Shown here: one piece after another, positions 28,466 through 32,119 of the stretch
Layout of the letters: each line of letters opens with the position of its first letter
Position numbering within the stretch: position 1 is the first letter of the stretch
Source of the DNA: Spirochaeta lutea
Lineage (GTDB): Bacteria; Spirochaetota; Spirochaetia; DSM-27196; Salinispiraceae
Direction: 5' to 3'
NCBI RefSeq assembly: GCF_000758165.1
Contig: NZ_JNUP01000069.1
Location: 1-64,000 of the forward strand
DNA: 64,000 bases
Position numbers and translations under genes: made by a program
Notes under the pieces: generated by a model
Told to the model about the DNA's origin: nothing
Seen by the model: only the letters and a program-made list of their open reading frames with translations
Databases searched by the model: none

Positions 28466-29371
28466 ATGACCGAACTTAAGGCATTCGAATCCCCGGAAGG
28501 GAATCAAGGAACCATTCCCCCGAATTTACTGCTGGGAACCTGCTCGTGGAACTACCCCTCCTGGAAGGGCCTGGTCTACACCTGCACCCAAAAGACCGCC
28601 GCGGACTACCTGGGGGAATATGCCCGGCACTTTGACACCGCGGAAATCGACAGCTGGTTCTACAAGATCCCCAGCCCCCAGGAAGCGGCCCAATATGACC
28701 AAAACACCCCGGATCATTTCGTCTTTACCACGAAGGTCTGGCAGAACCTGAGCCTGACCCACCGCCGCAGCGCCCCAGGCGGCCCTCCGGGGGCGGAAAA
28801 CCCCGAGTTTCTATCCGTCGATGGCTTCAAGCGCTTTCACGAAGCCACCCTACCCCTGGCGGATAAGATAGCCGTATACATGTTCGAGTTTGAGTACCTG
28901 AACAAGGCGAAGATGGAATCGGTGGACCGGTTCATAGACCGGTTCGGGGAATTCAAGGCCAAGATAGATCCCGCCATACCCCTGGGCATAGAAATTCGAA
29001 ATAAGAACTACCTAACCCCGGGGTACTTTCGGTTCCTGCAGGAAGCCGGCATCATCCACGTGTTCTCCCAGAAACAGTACATGCCCCACTTCTACACGGT
29101 ATTCCAAACCTACCGGCAGTACCTGGGCCCTACCACGGTTCTACGTCTACTCGGGGGCGACCGGAAGGCCATCGAACAACAAACCGGCAACACCTGGAAC
29201 CAGATAGTGGATGAAAAACCAGACACCCGGGACATCATCAATTTTTCCGTGAATACCACCTTCGCCCCGGGCCGGGTGATTGTGAACGTCAACAACCATT
29301 ACGAGGGCTCCGCCCCACTCACCATCCAACGCATCCGCAGGCAGTTCGGGCTCCTTGGAAATCCTCTTTAG
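28466..29371 (+). CDS. DUF72 family protein (YecE-like TIM barrel)
   Basis: A 301-residue protein with DUF72 signatures: LLGTCSWNYPSWKGLVY at the start, FDTAEIDSWFYKIPS, DHFVFTTKVWQNLSLTHRR, and the C-terminal INVNNHYEGSAPLTIQRIR (written here as VNVNNHYEG in this protein). The predicted fold is a TIM barrel; the reaction is not established. It ends 7 bp from the convergent Rpn gene, and its last 54 bp are included in the duplication seen again at 30533-30586. Confidence 0.88.
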   Translation: MTELKAFESPEGNQGTIPPNLLLGTCSWNYPSWKGLVYTCTQKTAADYLGEYARHFDTAEIDSWFYKIPSPQEAAQYDQNTPDHFVFTTKVWQNLSLTHRRSAPGGPPGAENPEFLSVDGFKRFHEATLPLADKIAVYMFEFEYLNKAKMESVDRFIDRFGEFKAKIDPAIPLGIEIRNKNYLTPGYFRFLQEAGIIHVFSQKQYMPHFYTVFQTYRQYLGPTTVLRLLGGDRKAIEQQTGNTWNQIVDEKPDTRDIINFSVNTTFAPGRVIVNVNNHYEGSAPLTIQRIRRQFGLLGNPL

Positions 29372-29724
29372 AAACGCCTCATTCCTGCCGGTTTTGTCCT
29401 GGTGATTCTAAAACCTCAAAAACTTGAGCCTTATCTGTTGCTTCTATAATACTATCTAAGGCCCGCTCCAGGGTTTCAGAATTCTGTATCGAGCTGATGA
29501 CCGTCCGTTCTTCTTCAGTAAGCCCGAACTTTCGTTCCAACTGCCGAATCAAAATTGCCTGTTCTGCAACGAGCTGTCCCCGAGTAATGCCTTGCTCAAT
29601 TCCTTTCTCAATTCCCTTTTCAATACCCCTCTCCATACCTTCCTTCAGACCCCGCCGCAACCCGATCCGTTCGGGTGTAGATATGAATCCCATAGCACTA
29701 TCCTCCAGCACCTTTCGGCTCTCT
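29318..29724. repeat. Duplicated segment, copy A (407 bp)
   Basis: This segment (end of the DUF72 gene plus the 3' part of the Rpn gene) recurs at 30533-30939 with a constant offset of 1,215 bp and no gaps. By eye, 29545-29724 (180 bp) is identical, 29318-29386 is nearly identical, and the middle (about 29387-29544) differs at roughly a third of positions. Confidence 0.92.
29379..29693 (-). CDS. Internal RpnS-like antitoxin translated from inside the Rpn gene
   Basis: In-frame internal start within the Rpn gene. GGAGG (minus strand, 29706-29702) is 8 nt before the ATG at 29693, an ideal ribosome site and better than most in the window. The product would be 104 residues starting MGFISTPERIGLRRG, including the four-residue repeats and the variable tail. 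In E. coli, RpnS made this way blocks the toxicity of full-length RpnL. Separate translation here is predicted from sequence only; the preserved standalone copy at 30600-30908 supports it. Confidence 0.6.
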   Translation of the reverse strand: MGFISTPERIGLRRGLKEGMERGIEKGIEKGIEQGITRGQLVAEQAILIRQLERKFGLTEEERTVISSIQNSETLERALDSIIEATDKAQVFEVLESPGQNRQE

Positions 29725-30452
29725 TTATAGTATACCTCATCCAGCCCCTCGGGAAGAAGGATGATCCAATCCAAAAACATGAACAGACTTTGAATCTGCA
29801 AGCTTGAGTGTCCATGGGTTTTCAGCTGCCGGGTTAGTTCCAGCTTTAGGTACAGCAGGGATTGATTCGCATCTTCCAGGCGCGTCAGGCGGCGTTTATT
29901 CTTCTTCCGTGCGGCCATATACTCAAGATGGATCTTCGTCGCCAAGGCAAAGGGGTTGGCCGCACCTGATCCGGCCATGGTACCCAAGGCACTATCAGAA
30001 ACCCTCTCGTCAAAATCCAGGAGCTTGGCGGTATAAAACTGAAACCGGACCACCGGCAGGCCCGCTGCCTCAATGGTTAGCCCCTCGGGCCGAAAGCCCG
30101 GAACGGAATCGGTAAGCAAGGCCAGGGTAATGGGGTAGAAACCAAGACGGTCGAATATCCGGTAGGAATACTGAAACAGACGCCAGGTTAGGTTCTTCTC
30201 GGGGCTCTGCTGTACCTCAATGTGGCAGAACAGGATTCCCGGTTCCCCGGTTTTTAGCTGAACCTGCACCAGAAGGTCGGCATAGCGTTTGCCTGTTTTT
30301 GACCGCCGGGTTAACCGCTGGAGCTCTTTATCGAGAAACCGCGGTTTGGCGGCGATATCCAGCAGTGTATGAACCTGGGGAAAATAGAAGGATAAAAAAT
30401 CATACAGGTGTTGCTGGATGATGTACTTCCAGCCGTTATCGAAGGGCTCCAT
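29379..30452 (-). CDS. Rpn-family recombination-promoting nuclease (RpnL-like)
   Basis: A 357-residue protein. The N-terminal PD-(D/E)XK nuclease core shows YADLLVQVQ followed by LFCHIEVQ (the D...ExQ pattern, about 68-95). The C-terminal third carries four-residue repeats (GMER GIEK GIEK GIEQ GITR, about 275-295), the helix known from E. coli Rpn proteins as the dimerisation and antitoxin part. Rpn proteins are nucleases reported to act as toxins with antiphage activity, restrained by a separately translated C-terminal protein. Here an internal GGAGG/ATG at 29706-29691 is in the right place for that product. It converges on the DUF72 gene and is followed upstream by a partial duplicate of its own 3' end. 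Confidence 0.85.
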   Translation of the reverse strand: MEPFDNGWKYIIQQHLYDFLSFYFPQVHTLLDIAAKPRFLDKELQRLTRRSKTGKRYADLLVQVQLKTGEPGILFCHIEVQQSPEKNLTWRLFQYSYRIFDRLGFYPITLALLTDSVPGFRPEGLTIEAAGLPVVRFQFYTAKLLDFDERVSDSALGTMAGSGAANPFALATKIHLEYMAARKKNKRRLTRLEDANQSLLYLKLELTRQLKTHGHSSLQIQSLFMFLDWIILLPEGLDEVYYKESRKVLEDSAMGFISTPERIGLRRGLKEGMERGIEKGIEKGIEQGITRGQLVAEQAILIRQLERKFGLTEEERTVISSIQNSETLERALDSIIEATDKAQVFEVLESPGQNRQE

Positions 30453-30532
30453 GAATAGAATACCGCGGAAAAACGCGGAATTGCTTCAAGTCTGGGAGAA
30501 AGATTTTACCGCACAGGCAACAACACACAGCC

Positions 30533-30586
30533 CTCACCATCCAGCGCATCCGCAGGCAGTTCGGGCTCCTTGGAAATCCTCTTTAG
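30533..30586 (+). pseudogene. Remnant of the DUF72 gene 3' end
   Basis: The last 17 codons and stop (phrase LTIQRIRRQFGLLGNPL) of the DUF72 gene at 28466 reappear here without the rest of the gene, as part of the 407-bp duplication. Confidence 0.85.
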
Positions 30587-30599
30587 AAACGCCTCATTC

Positions 30600-30908
30600 C
30601 TACCGGTTTTGTCCTGGTGATTCCAAGACTTCCAGTACCTGAGCCTTATCCGTGGCATCCACAAACATATCTAAGGCCCGCTCCAGGGCCTGCGTGTTCT
30701 CCACCGACCGGATAAATGCCTTCTCTTCTTCTGAAAGGCTGAACTTATGTTCCAATAAGCGAATCAAAATTGCCTGTTCTGCAACGAGCTGTCCCCGAGT
30801 AATGCCTTGCTCAATTCCTTTCTCAATTCCCTTTTCAATACCCCTCTCCATACCTTCCTTCAGACCCCGCCGCAACCCGATCCGTTCGGGTGTAGATATG
30901 AATCCCAT
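30600..30908 (-). CDS. Standalone RpnS-like (Rpn C-terminal) protein
   Basis: A 102-residue open frame equal in layout to the internal RpnS of the neighbouring Rpn gene, with the same GGAGG site 8 nt before ATG 30908. The first half (to AEQAILIR) is identical; the second half is clearly diverged (LLEHKFSLSEEEKAFIRSV against QLERKFGLTEEERTVISSI) yet keeps the frame, length and helix pattern. No nuclease core precedes it; instead the stop of wecA lies 44 nt upstream, so it would be made from the EPS transcript. It may be an orphan antitoxin with a different specificity, or a decaying fragment; the intact frame in the diverged part favours a functional product. Confidence 0.55.
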   Translation of the reverse strand: MGFISTPERIGLRRGLKEGMERGIEKGIEKGIEQGITRGQLVAEQAILIRLLEHKFSLSEEEKAFIRSVENTQALERALDMFVDATDKAQVLEVLESPGQNR

Positions 30909-30951
30909 AGCACTATCCTCCAGCACCTTTCGGCTCTCTGAATTGTACCCC

Positions 30952-32094
30952 TCAGCCCGCATCCTCGGTACGGCGTTTGTATTCGTTGTTTCTATGGTGA
31001 TTCCACAGCAGGAAGGCTCCGGTGCCCAGCCAGGCGGCCAGAACCACCAGATCGCCCACCCACAGGGGGGCGTCAATCCGGCGGCTGTGCACCAGGGCCC
31101 AGAAGATAACCGTAAGGCCATCCAGGAGCACTACCGTGTAGAGCACCCCCAGAATCCGGGGGACGGAGTATCCAAAGTTAAGGTATTTATGGTGAATGTG
31201 CTCCCGGTCGGGAGCGTAGATGGGAGTGCCCCGGCGGATTCGGCGCAGGATAGCCGAAATCATATCGCCGACAGGCAAGAGCAGAACAGAGAGGGTGGCG
31301 AGGAGTCCGCCGAATAGTAATATCTGCGAGGTCTCAGAGGTAGCAGAAGCATCAAGGGCGCCGGAAGAACCGTTCATGAACAGAAGGCTGCCCAGAGCAA
31401 AGCCTAAGAACAGGCTGCCTGAATCCCCCATAAAAATCTGAGCCTTGGGCTTATTAAACACCAAAAATCCGGCCAAGGATCCGGCCAGAATGGCGCTCAA
31501 CACAGCGCCTGTAACATTGCCGAGGACAAGGTTAACCCCGGCGAAAATCAAAGCTGTAATAGTACTCATGCCCCCGGCGAGACCGTCTATGCCGTCCATC
31601 AGATTAATGGCGTTCGACAGGCTTATGAGCCAGAGCACCGTCAGGGGTCCGGCAAAAATGCCGAACTGTACATCAATATTGAAGAACGGCAGGGTAAATC
31701 CGGGTATAACCGCGCCGCCTAGTACAATTAATACACCGGCAATAATCTGGCCAAGGAGTTTGTACCGGGCGCGGATGCTCCGGAAGTCATCGATGAGTCC
31801 AAGAATATGTACTAGGGTAAAGCCTAGAAAGGAGAATAGAAGCTCAGATGAAAAGGAAAATGCGGGTAGATCAAATAGCTTGGGGGCAAGAAAACCAGCC
31901 AGAAGGGAGCACACTACAAAGGAGAAAAAAAAGCCTACCCCGCCAAGCCGGGGCACTTCGCCCTCGTGAACCTTCCGGTGGTCCAGGCTATCGTACCAGT
32001 TATTTTTATGGCTTACCTTCAGTATTAAGGGTGTAAGCAGGATATTCAGTATAAACGGGGTAAGCAGAGCAGTTAGAAGCAAAACAGGTACCAT
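30952..32094 (-). CDS. wecA: WecA/TagO-type undecaprenyl-phosphate GlcNAc-1-phosphate transferase
   Basis: A 380-residue polytopic protein (about 10-11 membrane segments) of the MraY/WecA family. Motifs: VHEGEVPRLGG, the catalytic DDFRSIRARYK, NAINLMDGIDGLAGG, IFMGDSGSLFLGF and the WecA/TagO-specific HIHH in PDREHIHHKYLNFGYS. It moves a HexNAc-1-phosphate from the UDP-sugar to undecaprenyl phosphate at the inner membrane, starting a repeat unit. ATG 32094 is preferred over the TTG at 32118 because AAAGGAG lies about 11 nt upstream. It has its own promoter with an adjacent palindromic site. Last full EPS gene of the minus-strand block and the second initiating transferase besides the one at 41206. 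Confidence 0.92.
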   Translation of the reverse strand: MVPVLLLTALLTPFILNILLTPLILKVSHKNNWYDSLDHRKVHEGEVPRLGGVGFFFSFVVCSLLAGFLAPKLFDLPAFSFSSELLFSFLGFTLVHILGLIDDFRSIRARYKLLGQIIAGVLIVLGGAVIPGFTLPFFNIDVQFGIFAGPLTVLWLISLSNAINLMDGIDGLAGGMSTITALIFAGVNLVLGNVTGAVLSAILAGSLAGFLVFNKPKAQIFMGDSGSLFLGFALGSLLFMNGSSGALDASATSETSQILLFGGLLATLSVLLLPVGDMISAILRRIRRGTPIYAPDREHIHHKYLNFGYSVPRILGVLYTVVLLDGLTVIFWALVHSRRIDAPLWVGDLVVLAAWLGTGAFLLWNHHRNNEYKRRTEDAG

Positions 32095-32119
32095 GTACAG
32101 ACATTCTCCTTTGTACAAG

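Follow-up and report, generated by a model that had tools for sequence, protein, structure and literature searches.

Separately encoded RpnS proteins

The closest described systems are those of Escherichia coli, in which the toxic nuclease RpnL is bound and inhibited by RpnS (Zhong et al. 2023, PMC10327210). RpnAS dimerises via its long first helix, RpnCL is blocked solely by RpnCS of equal repeat number (Fig. 4D of that paper), and the four-residue repeats begin 8-20 residues past the internal start. RpnS is also encoded on its own there: ypaA (rpnES) stands beside rpnE and rpnCS lies downstream of rpnC, and YpaA/RpnES is translated (PMC10327210). The same paper reported rpnE fusions with a standalone-type end, and the formation of rpn arrays through tandem duplication. 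In some species DUF4351 is the annotation of ypaA-type standalone rpnS. In polymorphic toxin systems alternative end modules are stored as orphan cassettes beside the full gene, the module consisting of a toxin tip and the matching immunity gene. An earlier note on the present locus drew its analogy from those cassettes, but what is found here is an antitoxin-type tail, and the analogy is not needed given that separate rpnS genes (ypaA, and the one beside rpnC) were published in 2023. A standalone rpnS beside rpn is an already known kind of gene (Zhong et al. 2023, PMC10327210).

The locus in Spirochaeta lutea

The window, i.e., the whole stretch of DNA analysed, is positions 1-64,000 of contig NZ_JNUP01000069.1 of Spirochaeta lutea, whose genome assembly (GCF_000758165.1) consists of 69 contigs. 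The order on the minus strand is wecA, standalone gene, rpn. The features are as follows, with positions in the window.

28466-29371, plus strand: DUF72 gene, whose 3' end was copied along with the tail
29318-29724: duplicated block, copy 1
29379-30452, minus strand: rpn, predicted full-length RpnL nuclease, 357 aa (open reading frame; PF04754 match; D59, E79 and Q81 invariant)
29379-29693, minus strand: predicted intragenic RpnS, 104 aa (frame; internal-start enrichment)
29409-29544, minus strand: rpn copy of the exchanged rear half of the tail (43/136 positions differ)
29577-29651, minus strand: four-residue repeats in helix 1 of the rpn copy
29702-29706, minus strand: internal ribosome site GGAGG, 8 nt 5' of the internal ATG (nucleotide-level conservation in homologues)
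30463-30478, minus strand: hairpin past the standalone gene and ahead of the rpn start, putatively weak terminator-like or for translational control
30533-30939: duplicated block, copy 2 (its opening 54 bp are a repeat of the DUF72 3' end)
30600-30908, minus strand: standalone RpnS-type gene, 102 aa
30624-30759, minus strand: exchanged segment, standalone copy
30792-30866, minus strand: four-residue repeats in helix 1 of the standalone copy, the same as in rpn
30917-30921, minus strand: ribosome site GGAGG of the standalone gene
30952-32118, minus strand: intact glycosyltransferase gene resembling wecA, 5' of the standalone gene

As with rpnE/ypaA and rpnC of E. coli, a full rpn with an internal start has an adjacent RpnS-only copy, and the feature of ypaA-type genes, an RpnS-only reading frame with its own ribosome site adjoining rpn, is present. 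The arrangement differs in that the E. coli standalone copy is downstream of rpn whereas this one is upstream of it, behind wecA, and in that the two tails here do not differ in their repeats and have a rear half that is longer and DUF4351-like.

PF04754 (Transposase_31 in Pfam) matches the rpn product at 30.4 bits (cut-off 21; E 3.8e-7), over residues 55-102 only, and TIGR01784 gives 20.8 bits, under its cut-off of 52.1. D59, E79 and Q81 are invariant across 7 homologues and are presumably the PD-(D/E)XK-type catalytic motif of the Rpn family. A PF04754-type core, an internal ribosome site and four-residue repeats are shared with the RpnL/RpnS of E. coli and C. difficile (COG5464); the core is, however, divergent and the tail is not sequence-matched to 7TH0. 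By its profile scores this core is that of a divergent subfamily. The AlphaFold2 model of the full-length protein (mean pLDDT 77.5) has a core of mixed alpha/beta structure, followed by a middle part and a tail that are both helical. Its residues 1-147 align with NucS/EndoMS, Card1, Can2 and restriction enzymes (Z ~4-7, Foldseek E >0.1), and so, as modelled, would fall among PD-(D/E)XK nucleases, with scores too low to stand alone. A genome search found no second rpn gene in Spirochaeta lutea, and PADLOC gave no meaningful match.

Between the standalone gene and rpn (30453-30532) the rpn ATG is without a recognisable ribosome site, and a CCGCG/CGCGG hairpin ends ~10 nt upstream of it. This hairpin is possibly a control element for RpnL translation.

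A probable gene within rpn

That rpn encodes a nuclease together with a separately started internal RpnS-type product was the starting proposal of the earlier note. The coordinates and frame are confirmed: the internal ATG is at 29693-29691, GGAGG is at 29706-29702 with a spacer of 8 nt, and the product has 104 aa. Its repeats, GLKE-GMER-GIEK-GIEK-GIEQ-GITR-G, begin at residue 15, within the published range of 8-20.

Is the internal start real? Homologues from Spirochaetes and Aminicenantes have a start codon at the same place, behind a strong ribosome site, and an internal GGAGG-type site with its start is present in every subfamily homologue readable there. The residues encoded under the site vary among homologues (LEDSA, LGEET, TGGGT, TGGKI, ARGAD, LEEDYK, QEDTI), so that the nucleotides are conserved and the encoded residues are not, the pattern that a genuine internal start predicts. 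In a sample of full-length rpn reading frames, mostly from the class, 51 of 71 have an internal start with a site of at least 5 nt in the 28 codons before the repeats, compared with 39 of 499 background segments of 25 codons in the core, the two lengths differing slightly (Fisher p ~1e-31, a statistic that ignores kinship). With the site kept over differing residues and this enrichment, rpn as a gene-within-gene, giving a predicted RpnL and an internally started RpnS, is well supported, and to that extent the proposal has stood up.

Origin of the standalone gene

The standalone reading frame arose by duplication of the 3' part of rpn. The direct duplication of 407 bp (29318-29724 and 30533-30939, offset 1215 bp) is free of indels, takes in the final 54 bp of the convergent DUF72 gene and is not a product of chance. 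An artefact of assembly is unlikely, as the junction at 30533 has by eye only ~1-2 nt of microhomology and thus lacks any long common word that would link the pieces. The copy, from 30908 to 30600, has an intact frame, of 102 aa rather than 104 due to a C-to-T change that creates TAG two codons ahead of the position of the rpn stop. Its GGAGG and ATG are identical to those of the rpn copy, so the earlier description of an intact RpnS-type frame that retains its ribosome site and start is accurate.

The same description had the first half identical and the second half diverged. This is correct for the front (0/180 positions differ in the coding direction) and for the rear (43/136), but the pattern is in three parts, as the last stretch differs at only 2/91. 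A model of three rates is favoured over one rate with LR 94, matched by 0/300 permutations. The rear halves are separated by dS 1.19 and dN 0.20 (dN/dS ~0.17; pS 0.60), while the front has zero change across 41.7 synonymous sites, and so parts of the one tail differ in age. This comparison of the copies shows replacement of the rear three-helix half in one of them, evidently via recombination with a diverged allele. Unequal divergence rates without recombination are ruled out, as a rear pS of 0.60 stands against no change at the 41.7 front synonymous sites. Neither a donor for the exchanged half nor a further copy of the duplicated tail was found elsewhere in the Spirochaeta lutea genome.

A near-identical adjacent repeat with a variable stretch is also what template-copy mutagenesis by a diversity-generating retroelement would leave. 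However, the substitutions are of all types and in both directions instead of being confined to adenine, and the two reverse transcriptases of the genome are on other contigs; the proposal is refuted on both counts and its probability is negligible. The reverse transcriptase genes (G000:C1:102416-103156 and G000:C39:4582-5223) are in frames of ~500 codons. As to phage origin, there was no match among 50,697 phage records and likewise none in a scan of viral contigs; plasmid matches are only ~30% identical and mainly cyanobacterial.

The low dN/dS of the rear half reflects the history of both rear halves, not selection on the standalone gene. With the front identical even at its 41.7 synonymous sites, the duplication is too young to reveal selection on the standalone copy and, being so recent, leaves the intact frame short of proof of function. 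Might the copy then be a functionless by-product of recombination, a tail left behind by duplication and deletion of the core that has yet to decay? The 0/180 and 2/91 differences that point to a recent event, the useless piece of DUF72 gene carried in the block, and the known origin of rpn arrays by tandem duplication (PMC10327210) all accord with this.

Standalone tails in relatives and in E. coli

The earlier note had suggested looking in related genomes for solo Rpn C-terminal frames beside rpn, and many were found in Spirochaetia. Besides that of the window, 46 standalone tail frames were identified in the loci examined, including E. coli ypaA and one on an Acidobacteriota contig; as the loci were chosen partly for short reading frames and a few entries may be fragments, 46 is a count and not a rate. 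In Spirochaeta sp. GH27 a full rpn, its 5' end cut by the contig end, is followed by two standalone tails at 819-1136 and 1140-1421 (contig L060, apparently the same as L008). The two tails are identical or almost identical over the first 60 nt, which include the ribosome site, and differ in the number of GxEQ repeats and in the rear part. Other Spirochaetia loci have two tandem standalone tails (L065, L110) or three (L100), with different rear ends, at the following positions counted along the strand of the frames.

L100, 2982-3899, minus strand: tandem tails with different rear ends
L065, 3134-3607, plus strand: tandem tails with different rear ends
L110, 3168-3826, minus strand: tandem tails with different rear ends

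The tandem tails of GH27 (L060/L008), L065, L066, L100 and L110 resemble the window pair in their conserved start region and exchanged later parts, but they comprise up to three copies with unequal repeat numbers, compared with one copy and equal repeats in the window. Across 17 pairs of standalone and full-length tails, mean similarity is 0.92 at the front and 0.85 at the end (one-sided Wilcoxon p 0.004). Length differs inside the repeats in 14 of the 17, mostly by whole four-residue units; the other three, the window pair among them, have equal repeat number. The copied segment starts 31, 24 and 12 nt ahead of the start codon in three separate cases, with the ribosome site retained. A different product of rearrangement is seen in L041 (3651-4205), L043 (3354-3920) and L073 (3894-4310), where the middle of the core is deleted in frame, with N-terminus and tail kept, beside full-length copies; such deletion would be another route to tail-bearing proteins that are predicted to be nuclease-dead.

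In E. coli MG1655, rpnE and ypaA are near-identical in the start and the front of helix 1, ypaA has one extra repeat, and the ends have diverged. Sampled strains with both genes always have one end type on rpnE and the other on the standalone gene. In three strains lacking the standalone gene rpnE bears the standalone end type, so this end has been transferred to the nuclease gene. The repeat number of the standalone gene differs from that of its own rpnE in 7/7 distinct pairs sampled, which is not evidence of selection since, on our own estimate, random pairing would give no match ~40% of the time. Several intact E. coli standalone rpnES genes (L134-L141, L149-L152) are annotated by NCBI as incomplete or as pseudogenes, so short standalone genes are easily overlooked.

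Exact retention of ribosome site and start, likewise in independent cases, the recurrence of standalone copies across many genomes, and translation of the E. coli counterpart (PMC10327210) all argue against a functionless by-product, which is left as an unlikely origin though still one to be reckoned with. The frame in the window is very probably a genuine standalone RpnS-type gene.

The product and its likely partner

The two tails differ by 18 residues, located in the final turns of helix 1 and the three helices of the rear half, and the changes largely avoid positions conserved in the family. The AlphaFold2 model of the standalone protein has one 50-residue helix and a confident three-helix bundle, and as modelled this long repeat helix with a helical bundle is the general plan of RpnAS. 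Structure searches with it gave no significant match, 7TH0 being absent from the matches listed. A profile of window-type tails (A4) is without match to 7TH0, whereas another (A5) matches it with E 1.4e-7, and the two profiles align only across the repeat helix and its end. At the level of sequence the DUF4351-like rear half is not recognisably related to that of crystallised RpnAS (7TH0). PF14261 (DUF4351) itself matches the rpn tail weakly (16.8 bits, below the cut-off of 25) and reaches E of 0.1 or less with 10 of the 20 tails aligned; a search with it over 395 genomes was too insensitive for use.

The best explanation of the whole, to which a probability of about 0.5 is given, is a young standalone RpnS-type antitoxin that acts in trans and pairs with the adjacent RpnL. 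The rpn mRNA would, as its sequence strongly suggests, be translated into full-length RpnL and, by initiation behind the internal ribosome site, into RpnS. The standalone product would pair with RpnL, and with RpnS, via the common repeat helix, and so restrain the nuclease in trans; the exchanged rear half may alter stability, sensing or contact with DNA. Because the repeats and nearly all of helix 1 are shared with the adjacent RpnL, the standalone protein is expected by default to pair with it. That the protein does act as an antitoxin on this RpnL, a step argued by analogy, is put tentatively at slightly short of an even chance. The standalone gene has a strong ribosome site and starts 43 nt past wecA; the gap is free of terminator-like signals, and a shared wecA transcript is plausible from this layout. 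On such a transcript its product would come ahead of rpn, antitoxin before toxin. Of the relatives that have a close wecA, the nearest (L148) shows neither DUF72 nor rpn beside that gene among the long reading frames listed, and so gives no date for the insertion.

The earlier note preferred an orphan antitoxin of another specificity, directed at a different RpnL and distinguished by its rear half. There are the 18 rear-half differences to consider, and standalone copies elsewhere are usually unlike their neighbour, but chiefly in repeat number. Repeat number with helix 1, the sole demonstrated determinant of pairing, is here common to the adjacent RpnL, helix 1 being the same save for its last turns, and the genome is without any other rpn for such an antitoxin to meet. 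A different specificity is accordingly not borne out, and a foreign RpnL as partner is improbable.

A further possibility is that the standalone tail is a stored cassette, the tails swapping rear halves by gene conversion and so renewing the RpnL tail and its internal antitoxin together. The exchanged segment does sit between two homogenised flanks, and the rpnE genes with a standalone-type end in E. coli strains lacking the standalone gene fit such traffic. The window, however, is a single genome, and a crossover between its copies would delete the nuclease core, leaving conversion alone as workable. Storage is doubtful as the explanation, and is compatible with antitoxin function rather than exclusive of it. 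A role for standalone RpnS genes as trans antitoxins and stored cassettes at once, with swaps via the identical start-and-helix segment renewing phage defence, is just as speculative. So too is the corollary that such swaps would exchange rear halves (elsewhere repeat numbers), altering toxin and internal antitoxin jointly.

Implications

With the trans-acting antitoxin as the preferred reading, separate rpnS genes, described in 2023 in E. coli, are extended to a spirochaete lineage, where they are common and sometimes in tandem. In E. coli and Spirochaetia alike the pattern is of a front, with its start signal and pairing helix, that is kept and a rear that is swapped. The window pair is a natural test of RpnL-RpnS pairing, as its rear half varies while repeat number is constant, and in this it complements the published experiment on repeat number (Zhong et al. 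2023). Should the short proteins prove able to replace each other, pairing is not set by the rear half, which may then serve sensing or stability; should they not, a second element of specificity exists.
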